DNA of 35,461 nucleotides, from NCBI GenBank assembly GCA_009602725.1, contig WELB01000096.1, forward strand, positions 332,433-367,893, in the 5' to 3' direction. The translations under genes and the position numbers were made by a program. Every line of letters starts with the position of its first letter. The stretch's first letter is position 1. Positions 12,258-35,283 of the stretch are shown here, in pieces. The stretch comes from Spirogloea muscicola (Eukaryota; Streptophyta; Zygnematophyceae; Spirogloeales; Spirogloeaceae). Under the pieces are notes generated by a model. The model ran no database searches. It was not told the origin of the DNA and saw only the letters and a list, made by a program, of their open reading frames with translations.

Positions 12258-12880
12258 CACATGAGAAGATGACACGTAGAAGACACGTTCTTTTGTCCGT
12301 TCCTTTGGGCTGGACTTTCACAGCCACCAGTCAATTCGGCAGCGCTGTCCTCAGCTTTTGGTCTGGTCTGGTCTCAAAGCCATTGCCTGAAGTTGAAGCT
12401 GCTGCTTATTTTGAAAAAGCAGCAGCTCTGCGGAAGGGGAACGATGAAGAAAGCGCGGCCACATTGACTGGTAGCTGGGAGAGGCCAGCCCAGAGGAATG
12501 CGCAAGGTCTGAAGGAGCTGGAGTGCTAAGGCGTACGACATCAGCAAAGGGACGCTCAGTAATCTCTAGTCAAAAGATGCAAGTCGGAATAGCTCGCAGG
12601 GCGATGGGTTGGACCAGCCCAAAGGAGAAGGCGGGCGCGGCGCGCGCAAACGGAAGGGATGAATGGAAAGAAGAGGAGTGCTCTTGCTTGCCTTGCTCTT
12701 GCTCTTGCCTCTCACAGCCACCGCTGTCACTCTGGAAGCGCTGTTCTTGCTTGGAGGTGGCGGTGGCTAGATGGACAAGCCAAGTTGCGACGAAGACGTT
12801 TAGGGGAAGCGACAAGCTTTGCTATATGCTCATTAGAAGATGGCAGGCGGCGCAGGAGATAGCGGCAGCAGGAAGTCCTC
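12258..12880. repeat. patchwork of LINE 3' tails
   Basis: Plus-orientation hairpin TTTGGGCTGGACTTTCACAG at about 12303-12330. The minus-orientation tail at about 12470-12600 (GAGGCCAGCCCAGAGGAATG, then CAGTAATCTCTAGTC) parallels the 3' end of the copy at 25.48 kb. A GGTTGGACCAGCCCAAAG hairpin follows at about 12606. These are 5'-truncated tails in opposite orientations. The CTCTTGCC-rich stretch at 12680-12730 is low complexity. Confidence 0.6.
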
Positions 12881-12892
12881 GATAGAGTCATC

Positions 12893-14452
12893 CAGTGCAG
12901 CGCTTGGTCTCCCCAGGGCCTGCCAGCCCTCCTGCGCCTGCCCTCGGGCTGTCAGACACCAGCTGGGGGCTTCATCCTCCTCGGCGCCCCCATAGGCTCC
13001 CCAGCCTTTGTGGTGGAGCAGCTCCAGGCTCGACTGCAGGAGCACCTCCGGCCGGCGGACCGCCTCCACATGCTGCAAGACATGCAGCTGGCGACCGCCA
13101 TGCTGACCAGGTGCATTGCCCACCGTCCGCACTACCTGGCCCGCGTCCTCCCTCCCTCCCCGGCGGTGAAGGCGGCGTACGCGGCTTTTGACTCCGGCGT
13201 TCTGGCGAGCGCGGCCTCTCTCCTGCAACACCCCGGCTTCCTCACCACACCAGCCGCGATGCTCCAGGCCAGCCTGCCTGTCAGTCGTGGCGGTCTGGGC
13301 TGCCGCCCAGTCGCCCGCGTTTGCGAGGCCGCCTACCTGGGCAGCTGGGCCCAGGTCGCCGCACCCATCAGCCGGCGGTTCCAAGCGCACGGCATCCGCA
13401 CCATGGAGCGGGTGGTAGCTGAAGTGGAGAGCGGCTCGTTGCCTTTCCAGGCTGCTCTCCGCGCTGCCCGCGACGCGCTCCTGGCGGCCCACCCCGACAT
13501 GTCGAAGCAGGTCGTCCCGTTCATCCACCTTGCGCACACCCCCGACCTGCGGGCCCAGGCCCGCTACACTGCGCTGGTGGACAAAGCGGCCTACGACCAG
13601 TTGGTGGAGCTCCTTCCGCCGCACGACACCCGAGGGCGCGCCCGGCTCCTCTCCGCCTCCTCCCCTGGGGCGGCGGCGTGGCTAGCAGCACTCCCCATCT
13701 ACGCGGCGCTGACTATTCCAGACGCGGTATTCAGGACGGCGGCCCACCGGCTCCTCGGCCTCCTCCCTCCCTGCCTCATCGGGGTCCAACAGTGCGAGTG
13801 CGGTGCCCGCCACGATGACCCTGCGGCGTTGGCGGCCCACATGCTCCGCTGTGCACACGGGGGCGAGCGGACAGGTTCGCACGACCTCCTGCGAGACGCC
13901 ATGCAGGGTGTGTTCCTGGAGGCCGGCTACAAGGTGGCAGTGGAGAACTCCACGATAATGCCCATCCTGCGGGGCGCCGATGGACAGCTTCACACCCGCC
14001 GCGCGGACCTCGTTGCCATCCCGCCCGGAGGAGGTCCGCGCATCATCGCTGATGTGGTAATTGCCGATTGCGTTGATTCGGCCAACCCCGCGAGGTCCGC
14101 GACGCTCGTCGGGCACGCGGTCGCTCTGGCGGCTCGGAGTAAGGAGCGCAAGTACTCTGACCACCCTCCAGGCGATGCCTTCGCGGCACTGGCCATTGAC
14201 GTACACGGGGCATTTGGCAGTGGCTGGTTGGATCTCCTCCAGCGGCTTGCCCGGGAGGCCATCGAGCGGCGGCAGGGTTCGCCAGGCTTCAATGCTGCCG
14301 GCTCCCTCTCGCAGGTCTTTCGGATGAGGCTGGCGGTCTCGCTGCAGCGCTCTTTGGCTCATGCGGTCCACGCTGCTTCCGGGTCTCGGCAAAGCGCCGC
14401 TTCTCCTGCTCCGAGTTACTCTGATCTGCTGTTGCTCACAAGTGGATACTGA
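12893..14452 (+). pseudogene. RLE-type LINE, RT thumb to C-terminus (5'-truncated)
   Basis: A single open frame of 519 codons begins inside the reverse transcriptase just after the YADD region (CSAWSPQGLPALLRLPSGCQ, homologous to the 27-kb copy). It ends at YSDLLLLTSGY. In order: thumb/linker helices (ASLPVSRGGLGCRPVARVCE); CCHC knuckle CECGARHDDPAALAAHMLRC at about 13793-13852; endonuclease with HTRRADLVAIPPGGGPRIIA, DVVIADC, SKERKYSDHP and ALAIDVHGAFGSGW; and the C-terminal block AGSLSQVFRMRLAVSLQR. D (RAD), D (IAD) and the K of KERKY are candidate PD-(D/E)XK residues. The first methionine in frame is at 13010, but the homology starts before it. The intact frame with a missing N-terminus suggests a recent 5'-truncated insertion. 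A near-identical copy lies at 22.24-23.53 kb (-). Confidence 0.85.
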
Positions 14453-14600: not shown

Positions 14601-15740
14601 TCATCCAGCATCGGAGGGAGGATATCTTAGACGAGATGGGAAGCTGGCCAGGGGAGGGGATGGAGGATGCCTGTGAGAGCAGCTACTGTCTTGAATGTTA
14701 TAAAGGCCCCTGATTTCACCACTTTGTTCCTTTTGGGCAGGCCTTTTACAGCCATCGCCAAGTGTCGTAAGAGGTCCTTTACTTATCAAGGCAATGGCCG
14801 TGAAGTAGAATAAGTAAGCCCTCCCAGCAAAATTACGAGGGGCTCTTCCAAAGCGGGCGAGGGCTGTGGAAGTGCAGCCCCAAGTAGCACAATTTGATAT
14901 ACCAGGTTGGAAGTCACGCCAAAGCCCTGCGCCGCCCCTGCCCCGGGGGGGAGCTAGGCCAGGATTGTCGCACAGTAGCTCGGCATCTCGGGGCCGGCAT
15001 CTTTCTACCGTACGGCTGGCCCCCGGCCGGCAGCAGAATACTCACCTGGCACTTGCCGAGATGCCCTGCCGGCCAATGATAGCAAGTTATCGGAAGAAAG
15101 TACAGCCTTGGGGCGACGTGGCGCCACGGCGTGGCGCCGAGCGTCGCGGCGGGCGCCGCGTCTCGCGGCGGGCATCTTGCGCGCATCGCGAGGGTTCGCG
15201 GCGGCTCCGCGTGCGGCCATCTGGCCGGGCAGCTGATCTCGCCGCCGCCTCTCCCTTGCTCCCCATCTTCTCGTGGGCCTTTCCCATTCTTTTTCTCCGG
15301 GCTGGCTTTTCCAGCTCTCGCCCCCCTTTGGGCGCGAGCTTAATCTTTGTCCATCCTTGGCGGTTCTCAACGGGCTGGCTTCAAACAGCCCCCGCTCCTC
15401 TTTTGGAAGTGCCGCCTCTTCCTTGTCAGTCAATGAGCTGCTCCTTCATCTCTTCCTCATCCCTCGCATGCAACTCTCTCGAGACTGGGAGATGCTGGCC
15501 AACGCTAAAATTCATCTCTTTGCTTGATCTATGTGCTGTGCTCGCCTGCTTGCCTCCCCGGTTTCCCTTCCCTCTCTTCCTCCCTCAATCCCCCGGCTAA
15601 TTTGATCCTCGCCCACTCCTGGAAAAGCTCACACTTGAGAAGAGCTGCTACTTCCCTGTCGTTGATGCCTTCCTGGCCTGTCACAGCTTACCTCAATAAT
15701 ATCTTCCACGGCCGTCGCCCCTCTTGATGGAGCTTTCCCC
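14601..15740. repeat. GC-rich region with degenerate hairpin repeats
   Basis: Hairpin-like variants appear at about 14836-14885 (GGGCGAGGGCTGTGGAAG, then CAGCCCC) and 15283-15345 (TTTTTCTCCGGGCTGGCTTT, then TTTGGGCGCGAGC). Between them, around 15110-15240, a very GC-rich stretch is full of GGCGCC/GCGCC palindromes (GTGGCGCCACGGCGTGGCGC). Long ORFs on both strands here arise from GC bias, and I recognise no protein. Confidence 0.5.
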
Positions 15741-15793
15741 TCCTCTGGCGGCCCTGCCTAGTCCGGCAACACCCACCCCGGCTTAGCCCAGGC

Positions 15794-15821
15794 GGTGGCT
15801 GCTGGCGCGCCAGCAGCCACC
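15794..15821. repeat. 28-bp perfect palindrome
   Basis: A perfect inverted repeat centred on GGCGCGCC, with arms GGTGGCTGCTGGCG and their complement; it continues outward for a further 3-4 bp with one bulge. It lies about 310 bp upstream of the nuclease ATG. It could be a promoter element, a cruciform-prone site or a chance result of GC richness. Confidence 0.7.
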
Positions 15822-15955
15822 CGCCCGGGGCGGCGGCACAGCTCGATACGCCGCTTGCACCCGAAGCGGCGGATCTCGGCCCGCACAGATTTGCAACTTT
15901 TTCCGGGGCGGCTGGCTGCGGAGGAAAGGCGGGGCCCGCCCTAGTCCTCCCGGCT

Positions 15956-16040
15956 GCGGGGGGAGAAGGAGAGCGGGAGGACGGAGGGGAAGGCGGCGAA
16001 GGAGGAGAGAGAGAGGGAGGAGGGGGGAGGAGGAAGGCGG
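15956..16040. repeat. purine-rich tract upstream of the nuclease gene
   Basis: About 85 bases of almost pure G/A on the plus strand (GGAGGAGAGAGAGAGGGAGG-like), ending about 20 bp before a TATA-like box. GA/CT tracts are common in promoters of GC-rich algal genes; a role here is inferred only. Confidence 0.55.
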
Positions 16041-16060
16041 CTCGTAGCGAACGTCGGGGC

Positions 16061-16066
16061 TATAAG
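16061..16066 (+). promoter_or_regulatory. TATA-like box of the nuclease gene
   Basis: TATAAG stands 72 bp before the start codon at 16133, where the flanking sequence is GC-rich. A start site about 30 bp downstream would leave a 5' UTR of about 40 bp. The ATG lies in a good context (CCGCCATGG). This is sequence-based inference. Confidence 0.45.
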
Positions 16067-16132
16067 CTTGAGGGCCCAACTGAGCTGCTCAAGTGTCACT
16101 CACCCCGGCCCCTGGAAGGCCCAGCGCCCGCC

Positions 16133-20910
<4,778 letters not shown>

Positions 20911-25477: not shown

Positions 25478-28090
25478 TCAGCAAGGAGGCTTTAAGTATC
25501 CTTTAGTCAGCAACTGCAGGTCGGAATAACTAGAGGGTGGAAAGACGTCGCCCTGACGGAACCCAAAGGCAGCAGCCAAGGCGCGGCCTGCACACAGGTG
25601 GACGGCAAAAGCAAGGGACCTCTGCAGGGAGACGACAAGGCGCATCCTGAACACTCGAGCAAGCAACCCGCCGGCACGGATAAGCTGGGTTGCTCGCTCT
25701 GCTGCCCTTGGTGGCCATCAAGTCTCAAATGCTCCGTGTACGTCGACGAGCGAAACAAAGTCGTCGGCCGCTGGGTGATCGTGGTATTTCCTCTCCTTGA
25801 CGCCCGCTGCTTGGCGGACTGCGTAGCCCGCCTCCTCCGACGAGCGTTGGGCACTCCTAGAATCAACGCAGTCATTGGTGACGACGTCTGCAATGAGCCA
25901 AGGGTACCCCGCCTAACGCACTGAAGAACGAGATCGGCGCGCCTAGAGTGGAGGCGGCGATTTGCCCCAACTGTCAGAGGCATGACACTGGAGTTTGCCA
26001 GTGCCACTGTCTAAGCAGGTCGTGAGTGCCGGTCCGCTCCCCACCTCGTGCGCATCATAGCATATGGGCAGCCAGAGACGCCGCATCCGGACTGCGCTTG
26101 CCACACTGCACCAGCCACTGAGGCAGGGTGGATGGAGGCCGAGGAGGCGGTGTACAGCTGTGCGGAAAAGTCATCCGGCATCTGGAGCGCGTCGTATGTG
26201 GGCAAGGCGGACAACCAGGGCTGCAGCCCCTGGGGAGGATGCAGACAGCAGCCACGCGCGTCCCCAGAGGTCGTCGGAAGGCAGAAGCCCCATCACCGCG
26301 GTGAACGAGGCCGCATCAACCACCGCCATGAGGCGAGCTTGGGCTCGGAGGTCGGGCATGCGCGAGAGGTGTTCGAAAGGGACTGCCCATTGCACCAGGG
26401 CGGGGGTGGTCCGCGAGCAGCGCATCCCGGGCTGAGCGTAGAGCCGCCTGGAAAGGCAACGCGCCGGTCTCCACGTCCGCAGCCACCTGCTCCAGCAGGC
26501 TACCCCCATGCCGGATGAATCGCTGGGCCACCGAAGTCGCACCCTGCGCCTAGCTACCCAGGTACGCTGCCCGGCAGGCGCGAGCCAGCGGGCGGCAGCC
26601 CAGACCACCACAACTCACAGGCAGGGAGGCCTGTTGAACTGCAGCCGGCGACTTCAGGAAGGCCAGGTTGGTATCGGACCAGGGCCGCTGTGCTGGCCAC
26701 GTAACCTGCATCAAAGGTTGCGTAGGTGGCCTGCGCTGCCGGCAAGGTAGGGAGGGCTCGGGCCAAGTACTGGGCCGTTGTACATTGCACCGCGTGATCA
26801 TGGCTAGCGCCAGCTGCATGCCGTGCTCTGGGAGGTGGGCCGCCGGCAGGAGGTGCTCCTGGAGCCGGGCGCGCAGCTGCTCGTCCACAAAAGACGGCGT
26901 GCCGAGGTACCCCAAGGATGGTGAGGCCGTTCAAGGGAGTCTGGCACCCTGGGGGCAGAGGCAAGGGGACAGGAAGGCCACGGGGCGACCACGCTACGCA
27001 CTTCTTGGCCCGGATGGACATGCCGAGGGCGGCCAGCTGCTGCCGGAAGGTGGCGGTGGCTGCCGACACGTCCCCAGGGCTGCCGACCAGGGTAGTGTCG
27101 TCGGCATAGGTGGGTAGGAGGACGCCGGGGTGCGCGCCGCAGTGGCCTTGAGAGCGCGACCGTGAGCCAGCGCAAAGAGAAAGCTGGCCAGAGGGTCCCT
27201 TTGGCATGTGCCCGTCCTTGACTGCAGCGTCTCCACCTCACCACTCCCGGTCTGCCACAGGAGGTCGCTGGGCTGGCCGTAGCCATGGCGGAGAAAGGGA
27301 AGGAGGGAGGGAAGGCAGCTTGCAGCTCCTCGGTGACGGCGTTTCGCTCTACGCTGTTGAAGGCGTTCTGCACATTGACAGCCAGGAGCATCCAGTCAGG
27401 GTGGAGATCTAGGGCCGCGGGGACGCCGTGGACGACTGCCCCACCGCCGTTTCACAGCCCAGTGCAGTATTGATATGGGGCAAGGTGGGTCTGCGATTGC
27501 CCGAGGTGTTGTTGCCACAGCGTGCGGGCCACCAGACACTACAGAACCTCCCTGATGGCGCTGGGTCAGACTCCGCCGTTGGCCTTGGCGATGACGAGGA
27601 GGTTGCTGGAGCAGAGCACCGAATGTGTAGCAGCAGGGACCTTGTCCTGGGCCACGAGCTGACACACTTGGAATAGCGCCTGGAAGTCGGAGGCCTCGAC
27701 CTCCAATAACAACTCATGAAGGTGCTCTGTGAGCATACCAGAGGGGCCGCCTGCGGCGGCTCTGCGGCTGCTCTGGAGTACCCTGCCGAGGGTTGCAGCG
27801 TCGAGGGCCACCTCCTCGGGCGGCTCGAAGGAAGGCAGCCAAGGGGGGAGGGGGCGCGGGCTTCGGAATGGAGGGCTTCCATGGCATGTCTACTGCAAGT
27901 AATGGCGGCTCGGTTGTACGGGGCTCGGAGGGACAGTCCTCCCGCAGTCGCCACAGCGAGTGTGGCCGGCAGCTGCACGCCACGCCTGCCCCGCTAGGTT
28001 GTCGTGACGGGCGCAGGCGAGCTCGTGCTGAGCCAAGCTACGGCGGTTGTGGCAGGGGCGCTGGCAATGCGGGCACACCAGAGGCGCAGG
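25478..28090 (-). pseudogene. near full-length RLE-type LINE, degenerate
   Basis: The longest copy. Minus strand from about 28078: zinc fingers (CPHCQRPCHNRRSLAQHELA ending in C, then CGDCG). RT blocks follow: AAGGPSGMLTEHLHEL, LLVIAKANGGV, motif A as LLAVNVQNAFNSVE, and motif C as TYADDTTLVG near 27110. Then KKCVAWSPRGLPVPLPLPPG, the RT-distal region (about 26.0-26.9 kb), remnants of the knuckle and endonuclease (HSRRADLV near 25940) and ARVFRMRLVVSLQRSLAFAV. The end is LQLLTKGY without its stop, running five codons on to 25478. Several frameshifts break it. The motif A aspartate is an asparagine. It gives the best view of the domain order ZnF-RT-CCHC-RLE. Confidence 0.8.
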
Positions 28091-28702: not shown

Positions 28703-30312
28703 TCAGTAACCACGAGTCAGCACATAGAGGTCGCTAGCTGACGCTCGAATACCGGACGGCAATTGACTAGCTCTTGTGCCAGCAGCTAAGGCTCGACCAG
28801 CTTTCTGATGCAGAGCATACGCCTGAGCTCGTTGCAGACAGGTTGACACTCGACGTCGCAGAAATGACAGATAGGCTGCCGGCATACCCATCTGGGCTGG
28901 GAGCATATCCTCGCGTCGTGCATATCCCAGACTCGCTATGTTCTCGAGTAGGGTATGGAAGCGAGGACCCAAGCAGCCGAAAGTGTCGATTGCGGCCGGG
29001 AGGAGGTGGTCACTGCGGGGGTAGTCTGAGTAGTGTCGGAGCTTTTTCTGCTCAGCACCTCCCACTGCGTGGCCAGCAATGTGTGTGGAAGCGGAACTCT
29101 TGTATGCCTCAGTCACCACCACATCAACCAAAGCTCGTGGGCCTCCGCCAGGTTGTACACCCACAATGTCCAGGGTGCGACGGTGATGGCCTCCCTGGGA
29201 ATCCGTGGTGATGGGCATTACATTGCTCACTTCAACGATGGCGCGGTAGCCGGCGTCGCGCATCAAGCCCGCCAGGGCGTCCCGTAGGAGATTGTGGACG
29301 CCCACCACCTCAGGGCCTGTGGGACACCGCAGCATGTGGGTGGCTAGGTCTCCGCCCTCCGTACGGAAGCCACACTCACACTGAGTTACTCCAATCAGGC
29401 AGGTCGGGGGCAGGCCCAGGAACAGCTGGAGAAGCGTCCGGAATGCTTCAGGGCTGATTTTGAAAGCGTTGTGGATTGCGTGTGTGGTGAGCCAATCCGT
29501 TGCCCCAGGCGTTGCGAGCGATGTGAGACGTGCCAGACTCCTTGGATTGGTCTTGATATCCGGCATCGTCCTCAACGCCTTGCGACGCTCGTCCTCAACT
29601 GCCGCAACGAGTCTGGCCTGTGCCGCTTTGTCTGGTGCTTGAGCAAGCGCTGAGAAGGGGGTGAGGAGGGGTTGTAGGGACGGGAAGGAGCCGAGTGCTG
29701 ACTCCCGGATGCTCCTCAGTTGTACTTGGAATGCCAAGGAGCCTTCCTCCACCTCGGCTGCAGGGCCGGCCAGGCAAGGGAAGCGCAAGGGAAGAAGGGA
29801 GGCAACCTGGTGCCAGCAACCGAGAAAGGCTGCCTGCGCCGTCTGTTCAAGTGACCGGCAGCCCAGGCCGCCCATTCGTGTGGGAAGGGATGCCTGCAGG
29901 GAGGATGAAGGTGAGGGGAAGGATGGGTGTTGAATCAGGGAAGCCAGGGTTTGCCGGAGGGAGGTGTCGAACTCCTTGTACAGCTCGCCCACCATGTCCG
30001 TTGGGGCGACTGTCCGCTGCAGGTAGCCAGCTCGTTGACCGATGCAGCGAGTAAGGATGGCCAGCGCCAGCTGCGGATCTCCGAGGAGGGGAAGGGAGGG
30101 AAGGGGGGCAAGGTGTTGCTGCAGGCGTTCACGCAAGTCCTCCGCAATGTGGGATGGTGTGCCAAGGGGAACTTTGAGAACAGCCAGCCCATTGGCAGGG
30201 GTCTGGCAGCCTGGTGGGAGCTGGAGGTTGGTGGGGAGGGGGCGTGGTGACCATGCCACGTTCTTGGTGGGGCAGACCCGCAGGCCCATTGTGCTCAGTT
30301 CGTGTACGAGTT
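28703..30312 (-). pseudogene. RLE-type LINE subfamily 2, open 528-codon fragment
   Basis: An uninterrupted frame from 30289 (upstream codons of the same frame reach about 30312: ELSTMGLRVCPTKNVAWSP) to TGA 28703. It starts after RT motif C, continues through LPPGCQTPANGLAVLKVPLG, LQASLPTRMGGLGCRSLEQ, CCHC (CECGFRTEGGDLATHMLRC), endonuclease HRRTLDIVGVQPGGGPRALV, DVVVTEAY and QKKLRHYSDYP, and ends SDLYVLTRGY. Candidate catalytic D, D and K are present. It is clearly diverged from the 12.9-kb copy but has the same layout. Its 5' end is cut and joined to another tail at about 30313. The long open frame suggests recent insertion. Confidence 0.85.
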
Positions 30313-30440
30313 AAGGATAGGGGCTGGAAAAGCCAGCCCAAAAAAGAATGAACAGAGTACGAGAAGGGGGCCAGGGGAAGCGCTAGAGAAAACAAGCACA
30401 CAAAGAAACAAAGCAGCTACGAATTACTCAGTAACCCCTG
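30313..30440 (-). repeat. LINE 3' tail (minus)
   Basis: AGGATAGGGGCTGGAAAAGC CAGCCC hairpin at 30312-30342, then the GAACAGAGTACGAGAAGGGG 3'-UTR stretch and the last codons (CAGTAACCCCTGCT = SRGY-stop in reverse) at about 30428-30441. It is a 5'-truncated tail joined head-on to the 5' end of the 28.7-kb copy. Confidence 0.7.
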
Positions 30441-30480
30441 CTACTGGGACAGAAGCACGCCCAGGGAACATGGTGCCCTG

Positions 30481-30545
30481 CGGACATTCTCCATTCTTTT
30501 TGGGCTGGCTTTGCCAGCCCCTCTTTCTTTATGGGCGAGCCTTCT
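30481..30545 (+). repeat. LINE hairpin unit (plus)
   Basis: TTTTTGGGCTGGCTTTGCCA GCCCC with an 8-pair stem, then TTTATGGGCGAGCC. It opens a plus-oriented truncated copy directly opposite the minus tail at 30313-30440, with about 40 bp between them. Confidence 0.75.
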
Positions 30546-30559
30546 CTCTCTTGCGGAGC

Positions 30560-30938
30560 GAGCGGTGCTGGCGATAAATCCACGGCACTTGCACTTGACG
30601 TCCACGGGTCTTTCTGCAGTCGCTGGCTGGACCTCCTACAGCAGCTTGCTCGGCAGGCCGGGTCAGCAAGGGAGCTGCCCCGCTTCAACGCTGCCCGGCC
30701 GCTTGTACAGGTTTTCCGCATGCGGCTGTCAGCTGGGGAGCCGGCAGACTTTCCTGCAGCCGGGTCGCTGGCGCAAGTGTTTCGAATGCGCCTGGCCGTC
30801 TCGCTGCAGAGGTCTATGGCCCGGGCATTGCACCTTCGTGCCGGCAGAGCCCTCGCTGCTGCCTCTGGCTCTGGCCAGGGAACCCACTTCAACGAGCCTA
30901 GCATCTCCGACCTGCGGCTGCTTAGCAGAGGTTTCTGA
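30560..30938 (+). pseudogene. LINE C-terminal fragment with internal duplication
   Basis: Plus frame: ALALDVHGSFCSRWLDLLQQ, ARPLVQVFRMRLSAGEPADF, PAAGSLAQVFRMRLAVSLQR, SMARALHLRAGRALAAASGS and SISDLRLLSRGF-stop at 30936-30938. The block around QVFRMRL occurs twice, about 70 bp apart. A duplication or fusion of two copies therefore occurred in frame. The second copy matches the subfamily at 873-996 and 32.2 kb. Confidence 0.75.
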
Positions 30939-31062
30939 GTGATTCGTAGCTGCTTTGTTTCTGTTTCTTAGCGCTTCCCCTGGCCCCCTTCTCGTACTCT
31001 GTTCATTCTTTTTCGGGCTGGTTTTTCCAGCCCCTATTCTCAATGGGCGAGCACTTTCTCTT
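30939..31062 (+). repeat. LINE 3' UTR with hairpin
   Basis: GATTCGTAGCTGCTTTGTTT, then CCCCTGGCCCCC, TTCGGGCTGGTTTTTCCAGC CCC hairpin (31014-31037) and CTCAATGGGCGAGCACTTTC. It is the complete standard tail of the LLSRGY subfamily. Confidence 0.75.
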
Positions 31063-31064
31063 CG

Positions 31065-31208
31065 CTGTCAGTCTCTTTCCAGCGCTCCGTGGCTCACGCA
31101 GTCCACTTGCGAGCAGGCCGCGCTTTGGCTGCTGCACGTGGGTCTAGGCGGGGTGCCTCTGCCGCTCCAGGAAAGGGCCGACGGTCTCCACGCCCGTCGC
31201 GTAGACCA
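31065..31208 (+). pseudogene. LINE fragments: C-terminal piece joined to endonuclease start
   Basis: 31075-31165 reads QRSVAHAVHLRAGRALAAAR (C-terminal block of another copy). At about 31167 the sequence switches to RADGLHARRVD, the start of the endonuclease domain, without its knuckle. The second part is the 5' end of the composite copy that continues at 31349, 32000 and 32462. Confidence 0.65.
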
Positions 31209-31348
31209 AAGAAGGTGCTCGCCCATTGAGAAGAGGGGCTGGCAAAGCCAACCCAAAAAGAATGGACAATGTTCAAAGCCAAAGAAAGAGGTGCTGGAAA
31301 AGGACTACTTTACAAAGTGCAAAATGGTGCAGAGGGAGATGCAGATGG
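31209..31348 (-). mobile_element. inverted LINE 3' tail inserted in the composite copy
   Basis: Begins AAGGTGCTCGCCCATTGAGA, then a GGGGCTGGCAAAGCCAACCC hairpin and about 90 bp of the TSGY-type 3' UTR, ending GATGGCTGC. It splits the host copy exactly within RVD|LVATPQAGGP: GTAGACC before it and CTGGTGGCC after it restore the frame once removed. Any target duplication is at most 2-3 bp. Confidence 0.75.
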
Positions 31349-31460
31349 CTGCCTGGTGGCCACACCACAGGCCGGGGGGCCACGTCTTCTCCTGGACGTG
31401 GTGACCACCGACGCATACGACCGCTCACACCCAGCCCAATGTGCCACCAAGGCTGGGCTG

Positions 31461-31584
31461 GGTACCTTTCTTCGTTGCATAGAAGCATACCTTGCGCTCA
31501 GCTAATACCAAGACAGCAACTCCTAACAATAATGGTATGATGATTCCCAGTCTTTACGCAAATACTTACAAGATACAATGTCAT
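31461..31584 (-). pseudogene. nad1: nuclear mitochondrial fragment: start of nad1
   Basis: Minus strand from ATG 31584: MTLYLVSICVKT, then after a one-base shift LGIIIPLLLGVAVLVLAERK and, after another small deletion, SMQRRK. This is the highly conserved N-terminus of NADH dehydrogenase subunit 1 (complex I, mitochondrial inner membrane). It ends at the junction with the LINE (about 31461). Two indels make it non-functional. It lies about 40 bp after the cox3 stop on the same strand and belongs to the same insert. Confidence 0.85.
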
Positions 31585-31625
31585 TCGTATTCCTACTTTT
31601 TTTCTCTTCTGCTTTGCTTTGCTTT

Positions 31626-31999
31626 TTATCCTCCCCACCAATAGATAGAATCAAATTAGAATAGCCAAACCACATCCACAAAATGCCAGTACCAAGCTGC
31701 TGCTTCAAAACCAAAATGATGTCTCTTGGTAAAGTGACCCATTTATTGGCGCAGACAACATATGCTTAGAAAAATTGTGCCTATGATAACGTGAAAGCCA
31801 TGAAAACCTATAGCTAAAGAAATGTAGAGCCATAAATACCATCTGAAAGAGTGAAAGGAGCTTCAACGTATTCCATAGCTCGTAAGGCTGTAAAGATGAT
31901 GGCTAAAACAATGGTAGCTAACAAACCATAGATTGCCTGATCTTTCGTTCGTGCAAGTATTGAGGGATGAGCCCATGTAACTGCAGCTCCAGAAGAAAG
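31626..31999 (-). pseudogene. cox3: nuclear mitochondrial fragment: C-terminal half of cox3
   Basis: Minus strand from 31999: LSSGAAVTWAHPSILARTKD, AIYGLLATIVLAIIFTALRA, MEYVEAPFTLSDGIYGSTF. A one-base shift near 31820 moves to LAIGFHGFHVIIGTIFLSIC, then GHFTKRHHFGFEAAAWYWHF, VDVVWLF and IYWWGG with the natural TAA at 31626-31628. This is cytochrome c oxidase subunit III from its third helix to the end. In-frame stops at 31743-31745 and 31656-31658 and the frameshift show it is dead. It is AT-rich inside GC-rich LINE sequence. It starts exactly at the LINE junction (about 31999). TGG is used for Trp. Confidence 0.9.
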
Positions 32000-32272
32000 C
32001 GGTCGCCTGCTCCGCTCAGGCAAAAGAGCTCAAGTACGCCGACCATCCGCGGGAAGACGAGTTCTTCCCGTTGGCAATTGACACCCATGGGGCGCTGGGC
32101 GCTCGGTGGCTCGAGCTGCTCACCCAGCTCGCCCGCCACACCATCGCCCGTCGCTTCCATGGGGAGCCGGTCGACTTTCCTGCAGCCGGGTCGCTGGCGC
32201 AAGTGTATCGTATGCGCCTGGCCGTCTCGCTGCAGAGTTCTATGGCCCGGGGCGCCACCTTCGTATTGGCAG

Positions 32273-32461
32273 AAGAAAGTGCTCGCCCATTGAGAATAGG
32301 GGCTGGAACAACCAGCCCGAAAAAGAATGAACAGAGTACGAGAAGGGGGCCAGGGGAAGCGCTAAGTAACAGAAACAAAGCTGCTACGAGACACTCAGTA
32401 ACCCCTGCTAAGCAGCCGCAGATTAGAGATGCTGGGCTCCTGGAAGTGGGTCCCCTGGCAG
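32273..32461 (-). mobile_element. inverted LINE 3' tail with 6-bp target duplication
   Basis: Begins AAGAAAGTGCTCGCCCATTG, then a GGGGCTGG-loop-CCAGCCC hairpin, the 3' UTR and the last about 20 codons of the ORF in reverse, ending GGGTCCCC. TGGCAG stands before it (32267-32272) and at its end (32456-32461). Excising it restores TFVLAGRALAAASG of the host copy. It therefore looks like a 5'-truncated retrotransposition event into a sister copy in opposite orientation. It defines the element 3' end as ..GGGCGAGCACTTTCTT. Confidence 0.8.
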
Positions 32462-32551
32462 AGCCCTCGCTGCTGCCTCTGGCTCTGGCGAGGGGACCCA
32501 CTTCCAGGAGCCTAGCATCTCTGATCTGCGGCTGCATAGCAGGGGTTACTG

Positions 32552-32695
32552 AGTGATTCGTAGCTGCTTTGTTTCTTTGTGTGCTTTTTTTCTTAGCGCT
32601 TCCCCTGGCCCCCTTCTTGTACTCTATTCATTCTGTTTTGGGCTGGCTTTTCCAGCCCCTATCCTCAATGGGCGAGCACTTTCTTCTTCCCAGCT
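32552..32695 (+). repeat. LINE 3' UTR with hairpin
   Basis: Standard tail of the composite copy: CTGCTTTGTTTCTTTGTGTG, CCCCTGGCCCCC, TTTTGGGCTGGCTTTTCCAG CCCC and CTCAATGGGCGAGCACTTTC TTCTT. With 32273-32455 it forms an inverted repeat with arms of about 180-200 bp. Confidence 0.8.
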
Positions 32696-32699
32696 GCGT

Positions 32700-33170
32700 G
32701 TCATTCCGACTTGCTGCTGCTCACTTGTCGTGACTGAGCTTCTGTAAGCGCTATGGCTGCTGCCTCAGGGTCTCGGCAGCGTGCCGCTTTTCCTTATCTC
32801 TTTTCCTGCTTCGAGTTCTGATTTGCTGTTGCTCACCCGTGGATACTGAGCATCCATCTGCATCATTTTGTGTCTTGGTGTGTAGTTGTCTTTCCGGGCA
32901 CTGTTTTGTGGCTTTTTGAGGCCTGCCGACATTGTCCGTTCTTTTCTGGGCTGGCTTTGCTAGCCCCTCTTTTTCCTTAGCCTAGCATCTCTGATCTGCG
33001 GCTGCTTAGCAGGGGTTACTGAGCGATTCGTAGCTGCTTTGTTTCTTTGTGTGCTCGTTTTCTTTGCGCTTCCCCTGGCCCCCTTCTCATACTCTGCTCA
33101 TTCTTTTTTGGGCTGGCTTTTCCAGCCCCTATCCTCAATGGGCGAGCACTTTCTTCTCTTTTTCTATGGG
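32700..33170 (+). repeat. two more truncated LINE tails in tandem
   Basis: 32735-32978: remnant of ..ASGSRQ and LLLTRGY-stop (TGA at about 32847), TSGY-type UTR and hairpin GGGCTGGCTTTGCTAGCCCC. 32979-33170: SLISDLRLLSRGY-type end (TGA 33020-33022), its UTR and hairpin TTTTGGGCTGGCTTTTCCAG CCCC, ending GCACTTTCTTC. Both face the same way as the tail before them and join directly end to start. Confidence 0.75.
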
Positions 33171-33362
33171 GGAGCCTTGCTCTCCTCTGTAACTTCCCCT
33201 TCCCGTTTGGAAGTGCCAACGGAACCGGAACCTGTATGATGCCGCTGGGCTTCGTTGCGCGCGTCGACGTGGCATCGTCCGGGAAGTCGTACTGTCCGGG
33301 CACGCGCGGCACGCGCTACTAGCGCCACGCGCCAACGCGCGGCACGCGCCATTCCCCTGAAT

Positions 33363-33510
33363 TCTGATATTCGGGCATCATTTAGCAACCTCTACGTGCT
33401 GACTCGTGGTTACTGAGCGGGTCAGCTTAGCAGCAGGTGATGTAAATCTGTCAATGTGCTTGCCTTTGTACTTGACCACACCGGCTCTCCATCACTCTGG
33501 GGATACGAAT
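33363..33510 (+). pseudogene. LINE subfamily 2, last codons and 3' UTR
   Basis: IRASFSNLYVLTRGY with TGA at 33414-33416, then GCGGGTCAGCTTAGCAGCAG and the UTR shared with 28.6 and 20.4 kb. Upstream, 33230-33360 is GC-rich with several ACGCGC/GCGCGT repeats (CACGCGCGGCACGCGC) that I cannot assign. Confidence 0.7.
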
Positions 33511-33954
33511 CAAGAATCCGCCCATCCAGGGGAGGACCTTGGGGCTACCCTCATCACACTCTTTGGGGAGGGGTAGCAGATGGAACGCAGTAGTAGGCCG
33601 AGTCTAGACTCATCAGTCGGACCCGTGACGCCCAGAAATGCAGTGTGTATTTAGTGATGGAGGGCCTGTGTGTCCCAGAGAGAGGAACAGGCCTGCTTGC
33701 CTGCTGCTGCAGCCGCCGCCACAGCCTTGCTGCTGCCATCGGCTGCTCAGCCCGCGCCGCGGCTCGTCGCTGCAAAGATTGTCGGCTCTCTGTAAGTGCT
33801 ATGGCTGCGTCCCATGTCAGGACAGCTGGTAAGCCAGACCCTCAGTAGAGTCACCACCTTCTGGCGGTGCCTCAGGGTAAGACTTCTGCTGTGCAGTATA
33901 TGCTGGCGTTCCACTGTAAGGGGGTTGTCCCTAGAACCCCCTAGGTCCGAACTA
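33511..33954. other. unassigned spacer between LINE tails
   Basis: No LINE coding or hairpin sequence is visible. Two overlapping ORFs of about 65 codons are Cys-rich by composition only. An imperfect repeat of CCCTAGAACCCCCTAGGTCC and CTAGGTCCG lies at 33930-33960. Nothing else is recognised. Confidence 0.35.
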
Positions 33955-34130
33955 GGTCCGTTCTCCCGCCTGCGGCTGCTTAGCAGGGGTTACTGAGTGT
34001 ATCGTAGCTGCTTCATTTCATCTGTGCTCGCTTTAGCAATTTCCTTGGCCACTCCGACCTTTGTTCATTCTCCTTTGGGGTTGGCCTCTCAGAGCCACCG
34101 CCCTCTCATGGAAGCGTCTTTCTCTCTAAT
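33955..34130 (+). repeat. truncated LINE tail (variant hairpin)
   Basis: SRLRLLSRGY with TGA at 33994-33996, TATCGTAGCTGCTTCATTTC, then TTTGGGGTTGGCCTCTCAGA GCCACC. The stem is weaker than in other copies and the terminal GGGCGAGC is missing, so this is an older or different lineage. Confidence 0.65.
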
Positions 34131-34229
34131 TAGGACGTACTAACCCCTAACCGTGCGTATAGGGATCAGGACGTCACAGCTTCCGTCTGCAGTAGTCTCG
34201 TGTCTAGCGTGAATAATTCGGCACCTTTC

Positions 34230-35045
34230 GGCTCTTTGGACTTTGTTTTGGGCTGGCCTTTCCCAGCCCAAAAAAGCCCAGAGAGCCACTGGGAGAGCCA
34301 CTTCAATTCCCAATTAGTAGAATTGCTTTTTGCGCCATCCGGCCCCTTCAGACCTTGTCCGTTCTGTTGGGCTGGCCTCTCACAGCCGCCAGTAAAATTT
34401 CCAGCCCCTACCCTCAATGGCTGGCCCCTTCTTCCTACCTTGTGGGCGAGTCCTTTCTTGCAAAGAAGAAAGTGCCCGCCCATTGAGAAAGAGGGTCTGG
34501 CAAAGCCAACCCAAAAAGAATGGACAATGTTCAAAGCCAAAGTTGCCCTTTCTTGTCGCGTCCTCACTCGTAGCTAGTGAGTGAGTCCATACTTCACCCG
34601 TTCTGACATAGCGCTTCAGGCCCCTCCGGCGAACCCTTGTTTCTTTGTGTACTTGTTTCTCTTAGCGCTTCCCCTGGCCCCCTTCTCGTACTTTGTTCAT
34701 CTTATTGGGCTGGCTTTTCCAGCCCAATGGCTTCCTCTGGCCCCCTTATCGTTCTTTGTTCATTCTTTTTTGGGCTGGCTTGTCCAGCCCCTATCCTCAA
34801 TGGGCGAGCCCTTTCAATTCAATTTTCCAGCCCCTATCCTCAATGGGCGAGCACTTTCTCTTTGTCAATTCTTTTCGGGCTTGCTTTTCGCAGCCCTTGC
34901 CCCTATTGGGTGAGCCACTTCTTTGGGCCCCTCCGTCATTTAGCCACTTCGAAATTTTTGTCAATCCTTTTTGGGCTGGCTTTTCGCGCGCACTTCTCTC
35001 GCTTTTCACAGCCTTTGCCCCTTTGGGAGAGCCACTTCTTTCTTG
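34230..35045 (+). repeat. long array of hairpin units
   Basis: At least nine units in 0.8 kb. Plus orientation: 34246 (GGGCTGGCCTTTCCCAGCCC), 34367 (GGGCTGGCCTCTCACAGCC), 34708 (GGGCTGGCTTTTCCAGCCC), 34772 (GGGCTGGCTTGTCCAGCCCC), 34826 (half unit), 34877 (GGGCTTGCTTTTCGCAGCCC) and 34973 (GGGCTGGCTTTTCGCG). Minus orientation: 34470-34530. Several are followed by a CCCCTAT-CTCAATGGGCGAGC end. The regular 60-100 bp spacing argues for tandem growth as well as insertion. Confidence 0.75.
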
Positions 35046-35283
35046 TCGCGTGCTGGTCTGAGCCTCTGGCTTTCGTCAGGGGGATTGTTTGCCGGCAGCT
35101 AGTCTGTCGGATTTGAGGCTCCTCACTCGGCCGACCTCCGGGCCCAAGTCTTCATGGCAGAGGTAGATGCGGCCTCCTTTACCACGAGGAGAGATCGTGT
35201 ATTAGAAAGAAATGTAGGCCAAATGGCCAGGTACAAGTCAAGCACATCTAAAAATCTACAGAACCTACAGCAGATTGACCCGC
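35046..35283. other. LINE fragments and 3' UTR of the terminal copy
   Basis: 35046-35180 contains broken plus pieces (FRQGDCLPAAS-like, then LADLRAQVFMAEVDAASFT, which resembles the RT-distal ..DLRAQARLMAVVDAASFT region of the 26.3-kb copy). From about 35200 the minus strand is the AT-richer 3' UTR of the copy at 35284 (GATTGACCCGCTCAATAACC). Confidence 0.55.

Follow-up and report, generated by a model that had tools for sequence, protein, structure and literature searches.

The locus described here raises the question of how half a kilobase of mitochondrial gene sequence came to lie inside a LINE retrotransposon of Spirogloea muscicola, and whether it is a nuclear insertion of mitochondrial DNA (NUMT), as the first-pass annotation had read it, or a product of the assembly or of the retrotransposon itself. 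The window, namely the whole stretch of 35,461 nucleotides that was analysed, is C96:332433-367893 in a 153-Mb assembly of 471 contigs. The evidence makes it highly probable that the insert is a functionless NUMT, which entered a fragment of an R2-like LINE through a double-strand break repaired by non-homologous end joining (NHEJ) and has decayed since its insertion. The features of the locus are collected in Table 1.

Table 1. Parts of the insert and of the LINE sequence around it, in window coordinates.
Feature	Position	Strand	Remarks
NUMT, 534 bp of mitochondrial DNA	31465..31998	-	Pfam COX3 and NAD1 chains; edges from other NUMTs that continue into mtDNA
cox3, C-terminal half with its TAA stop	31626..31998	-	frameshift near 31820; stops 31745-31743 and 31658-31656
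cox3-nad1 spacer, 41 bp in the window copy	31585..31625	-	counted; related spacer in L033, L034/L035 and L041
nad1, first ~40 codons	31465..31584	-	two 2-bp deletions
Host LINE left arm (..CATKAG), truncated at 31352	31352..31457	+	truncation junction single in the assembly (<=3 mismatches)
CTGGGTA, host bases retained at the break	31458..31464	+	CTGGG now twice (5-bp local duplication)
Host LINE right arm (AVACSAQ..), truncated at 32273	31999..32273	+	first base (31999) also compatible with mtDNA
Longer sister LINE ORF in the window	12863..14452	+	one of three ORFs behind the endonuclease-domain model

The origin of the insert can be read directly from its coding content. Both cox3 pieces match Pfam COX3 in the Pfam search (E 6.8e-21 and 9.8e-26), and the nad1 piece, with the query joined across one indel, matches plant NAD1 chains in the PDB (E 9.3e-6), so that the earlier description of a cox3 end, a spacer and a nad1 start on the minus strand is borne out; the bare, unjoined nad1 piece of 42 residues had no match to NADH dehydrogenase in Pfam. 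The GC content of the insert is 39.5%, versus 60% at 30001-31000 and 57% at 32001-33000. Arms of a high-copy LINE family border it on both sides and constitute nuclear flanks, and these flanks, the mitochondrial gene homology, and the stops and the indel private to this copy together uphold the NUMT reading.

The insertion site is likewise directly visible, by comparison with sister copies of the host LINE. The searches with the two arms gave 867 and 2315 first-look candidates, of which 40 were scored each, and most of the 52 loci compared were the best 12 of the 40 scored matches in each search, so these copies are a sample of a large family. Twenty-four of them (22 distinct) were chosen for having arms at most 11 nt apart, and hence are uninterrupted by selection; the gap between their arm alignments is exactly 3 nt in 21 and 6-7 nt in the other three, where the alignment stops early. 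In a further LINE copy, in L029, the arms are separated by 124 nt, at a different point. The consensus of the 24 copies reads CATKAG-Y-AVACAARAKELKYADHP at the site, which agrees with the annotated loss of at most one host codon (KAG-Y-AV in the sister consensus) and amounts to 1 bp at the DNA level. The insert breaks up a reading frame that runs through unbroken in the sister copies chosen; it was therefore inserted after the LINE, and the proposed order of events stands.

The host itself is a LINE fragment of approximately 382 bp, truncated at both ends, and among the copies compared most sisters extend past it in both directions. The empty sites come from paralogous LINE copies only: allowing up to 3 mismatches, the assembly contains the left truncation junction a single time, and no orthologous empty site of the window was found with it; the right junction is present at 5 places and therefore cannot mark orthology; and on the homeolog C20, of which 3 kb was read, the repeat cluster is not colinear with the window. 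A run of N starts directly after the window end. Elsewhere, for window 28703-30310 and L033, the LINE copy is 99.7% identical over 772 bp to a copy on C59, which suggests recent LINE movement or a recent duplication, and a short repeat of the CGCCCATTGAGAATAGGGGCTGG..CCAGCCC type recurs on both strands between the LINE fragments at 30400-35100.

The insertion had been placed within the endonuclease region of a LINE; the LINE site was right, the copy proved to be the short fragment just described, and the endonuclease assignment is probable. A domain model of 187 residues, made from three window ORFs of the LINE family, showed the order alpha-beta-beta-beta-alpha-beta following the C-terminal CxC..C stretch, at low confidence (mean pLDDT 57.2). 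Restriction-like endonucleases typically have this order. With the same low-confidence model, Foldseek ranked R2 retrotransposon proteins first to fourth (E 7.7e-4, 5.9e-3, 1.0e-2 and 3.6e-2; probability 0.98 for the best; TM-scores at most 0.36). No endonuclease match was found in Pfam with three LINE ORFs, and a PDB sequence search with one ORF returned neither an R2 protein nor such a nuclease. The family has an RVT_1 match at 26554-27237 that stays below the cut-off (E 0.016, 15.4 bits against 29.6), and the structure model of a whole 529-residue LINE ORF was uninformative (mean pLDDT 35.6). The weak domain model thus supports, without proof, that the host region is probably an R2-like endonuclease. 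R2 elements have a site-specific target in rDNA.

The edges of the insert could be fixed from both sides, as the mitochondrial side of each was read from other NUMTs that extend past its limits. On the minus strand, the mitochondrial DNA reads on as GAAAGG-GGCCTAATG at the nad1 end and arrives from AATCTTAC-TTTCTTCTGG at the end with cox3; the junctions in the window are GAAAGG-TACCCAG-CCCAG-CCTTGG and GGCGACCGC-TTTCTTC; and the uninterrupted host site is GGCGACCGCATACCCAGCCTTGG. Because the other NUMTs and the empty site together define both sides of each join, the segment annotated at 31461-31999 is retained, with its limits shifted by 1-4 bp to a mitochondrial part of 31465-31998: the bases at 31458-31464 are host sequence, and base 31999 is compatible with host and mitochondrial DNA alike. 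At the insertion the host lost 1 bp (one A) and had CCCAG doubled, a 5-bp local duplication, beside which one join is blunt, the other containing 1 bp of microhomology (a shared C). Neither a target-site duplication nor a tail was found in the sequence read at the junctions.

The loss of a single base pair, the blunt and microhomologous joins, and the lack of target-site duplication and tail fit end-joining repair of a double-strand break. According to the part of PMC6215612 available to us, NHEJ captures NUMTs with blunt joins or 1-7 bp of microhomology and deletes few bases; these marks of NHEJ junctions, with a small deletion and no target-site duplication, are all present in the window insert. 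We infer from these features that a break took place, which pathway repaired it, and that DNA and not RNA was taken up. A double-strand break would have opened within the short truncated R2-like LINE fragment of the nuclear genome, and the 534-bp mitochondrial piece, comprising the cox3 end, the spacer and the nad1 start, would have been joined into it by NHEJ, one end blunt next to the 5-bp host duplication and the other through the 1-bp microhomology, with 1 bp of host sequence lost; the insert, without function, would have decayed afterwards. A reverse transcribed mitochondrial transcript captured by the LINE machinery could also span two genes of the same strand, as a polycistronic transcript does, in a host family that matches RVT_1 weakly and has a putative R2-like endonuclease. 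However, the junctions have neither tail nor target-site duplication, the insert sits antisense within a LINE fragment that was already there, and the break points of other NUMTs are many and different, which leaves capture of a transcript very improbable.

The damage to the reading frames can be seen directly, and its parts differ in what they say. The frameshift and two stops annotated in cox3 and the two indels in nad1 are all present. Both stops (Table 1) rest on changes private to the window copy, and so does one of the 2-bp nad1 deletions, the other being gapped in L034/L035 as well. The cox3 frameshift near 31820, however, also occurs in L036 and L038 and by itself is therefore no evidence of decay after insertion; the private damage suffices for nuclear decay despite this shared change. 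It also bears on the notion that the locus is a chimera of the assembly, with organelle reads misjoined into a repeat, to which a repeat-rich locus approximately 3.5 kb from the run of N at the window's end would lend itself. In raw organelle DNA one would not expect stops, an indel and 12 substitutions that none of the other copies compared has, and there is no N within 3 kb of the insert; a chimera is thus the least credible of the alternatives, its chance being minute.

For the timing, private changes were counted in the insert against 27 other groups overall, of which 4-9 were represented at 14 of the 15 columns sampled, and in the host arms against 22 copies. They amount to 12 of 535 columns (2.2%) in the insert and 9 of approximately 380 (2.4%) in the arms; measured against the majority, the insert has 19 differences in 535 and the arms have 12 substitutions and 2 indels per approximately 380. 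Since the private divergence is similar and the comparison sets differ in depth, the ages of insert and host arms can be called similar, and nothing more. As judged from these counts, the mitochondrial insertion probably followed soon after the arrival of the LINE.

The window insert is one of many such pieces. Counting itself, the 0.54-kb segment matches the assembly at least 47 times (40 of 50 candidates were scored), at no fewer than 40 loci; the 39 besides the window, with many different ends, hold 47 pieces with 5759 aligned bp, or 10.7 times the segment, in a local search. By shared flanks, 19 loci fall into 7 families and 21 stand alone, giving a lower bound of 28 groups; the family L050/L052/L056 was grouped on the downstream flank only. 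A second NUMT, L039, directly adjoins LINE sequence of the same right-arm region. As duplicated blocks with NUMTs occur in this genome and the cox3 frameshift is common to L036 and L038, the window insert might have been copied from another nuclear NUMT instead of from the mitochondrion; but the best-scoring other copy among the matches listed reaches 91% identity along just 325 bp, and none of the 39 other loci shares flanks on both sides with the window, so a nuclear source appears improbable. Short pieces of other NUMTs are closer to the window copy, for example 100% identical over 54 bp.

The seven flank-sharing families might suggest that transposons amplified the NUMTs, but this is not claimed, because in two of the families the one member searched has the look of a gene duplicate. 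These members, from two triplicated families, encode ordinary gene parts (RRM, and DSBA below its cut-off), and their content suggests that pieces of chromosome were duplicated, not that transposons were at work. Gene-like stretches also recur, in three or four copies of approximately 82-92% identity, at window 18910-20019, in L040/L042/L043 and in L046/L048/L049, which may resemble a hybrid or polyploid genome; the other copies of the stretch at 18910-20019 are 92, 91 and 86% identical. The gene at window 15728-20019 has a lamin-tail match just below the cut-off, an endonuclease/exonuclease/phosphatase domain and proline-rich SPPP stretches. One further NUMT locus, L065 (C284:14640-15634), is a tandem satellite with units of approximately 180-203 bp, each with a mitochondrial cox3 piece and AAACCCT telomere-type repeats; at L054 (C61), which shares flanks with it, the repeat finder saw no satellite array.

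The other NUMTs also inform on the donor genome. The first-pass annotation had deduced that cox3 and nad1 are neighbours on one strand of the mitochondrial DNA, and this adjacency is supported by NUMTs, of which four groups (the window, L034/L035, L033 and L041) span the order cox3-spacer-nad1; no statement of such an order was found in the available portions of algal mitogenome papers. At C43:462400-480400, L034 and L035 form two inverted low-GC blocks of approximately 5 kb, 92% identical, in which a longer stretch includes cox3-nad1. The mitochondrial genome itself is apparently absent from the assembly, since no whole cox1 or cox3 was found there: COX1 gave 15 matches, all partial, with stops in many and at most 225 of 436 positions covered, and COX3 gave 21, all partial, two of them being the window itself.

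The window, L036 and L038 are shorter by the same single base in a T-rich part of cox3 despite different flanks and ends; by manual count, L033 is out of frame there as well, and L037, which has diverged further, is longer by one base and by the same count stays in frame. As NUMTs of different flanks carry the same shortening, the donor mitochondrial DNA may itself have had a broken or recoded cox3, a defective mitochondrial haplotype then seeding the nucleus repeatedly, which we regard as unlikely. Four TAG codons in a COX1 match had prompted consideration of the Chlorophycean mitochondrial code, with TAG as Leu and TCA as stop (PMC4159012, in the part available). That code was rejected, because the COX1 reading lies in another frame there and TCA stands at Ser positions of the cox3 consensus.

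The plastid presents another picture. The family Photo_RC (psbA/psbD) gave 2 matches (4 candidates, 4 scored), both near-whole, stop-free and on contig C392, presumably the plastid genome, and no psbA/psbD fragments were found elsewhere in the assembly at the sensitivity used. Dozens of mitochondrial scraps from a single half kilobase of mitochondrial DNA contrast with no psbA/psbD scraps at that sensitivity in a photosynthetic eukaryote, which bears on the differing rates at which mitochondrial and plastid DNA leak to the nucleus. The window event is not special in this genome but an ordinary NUMT, and the interest lies in the abundance of NUMTs and in the asymmetry between them and plastid insertions (NUPTs).

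In conclusion, the pasting of mitochondrial DNA into the nucleus is a well-known kind of event, and here its edges are unusually clean: the site before insertion can be read to the base from many sister copies, and the organelle side from other NUMTs, which makes a clean textbook case. Compared with R2-like LINEs having a restriction-like endonuclease, the host family appears alike in its CxC..C stretch followed by the modelled domain and in its top Foldseek matches, while the window host differs in being a fragment and the model is of low confidence. Compared with the proliferation of NUMTs and NUPTs within the nucleus described in the accessible part of PMC7037861, some NUMTs here have likewise multiplied with their flanks, whereas the searched members of two triplicated families hold ordinary gene parts and the window NUMT has not multiplied. 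The closest likeness is to the simple NHEJ-captured NUMT, as far as the available parts of PMC6215612 and PMC7037861 describe it, with one contiguous piece of mitochondrial DNA, blunt and microhomologous joins, minimal host deletion and pseudogenisation; the window case differs only in its target, a LINE fragment hit in its probable endonuclease region, for which many sister copies supply base-exact empty sites.
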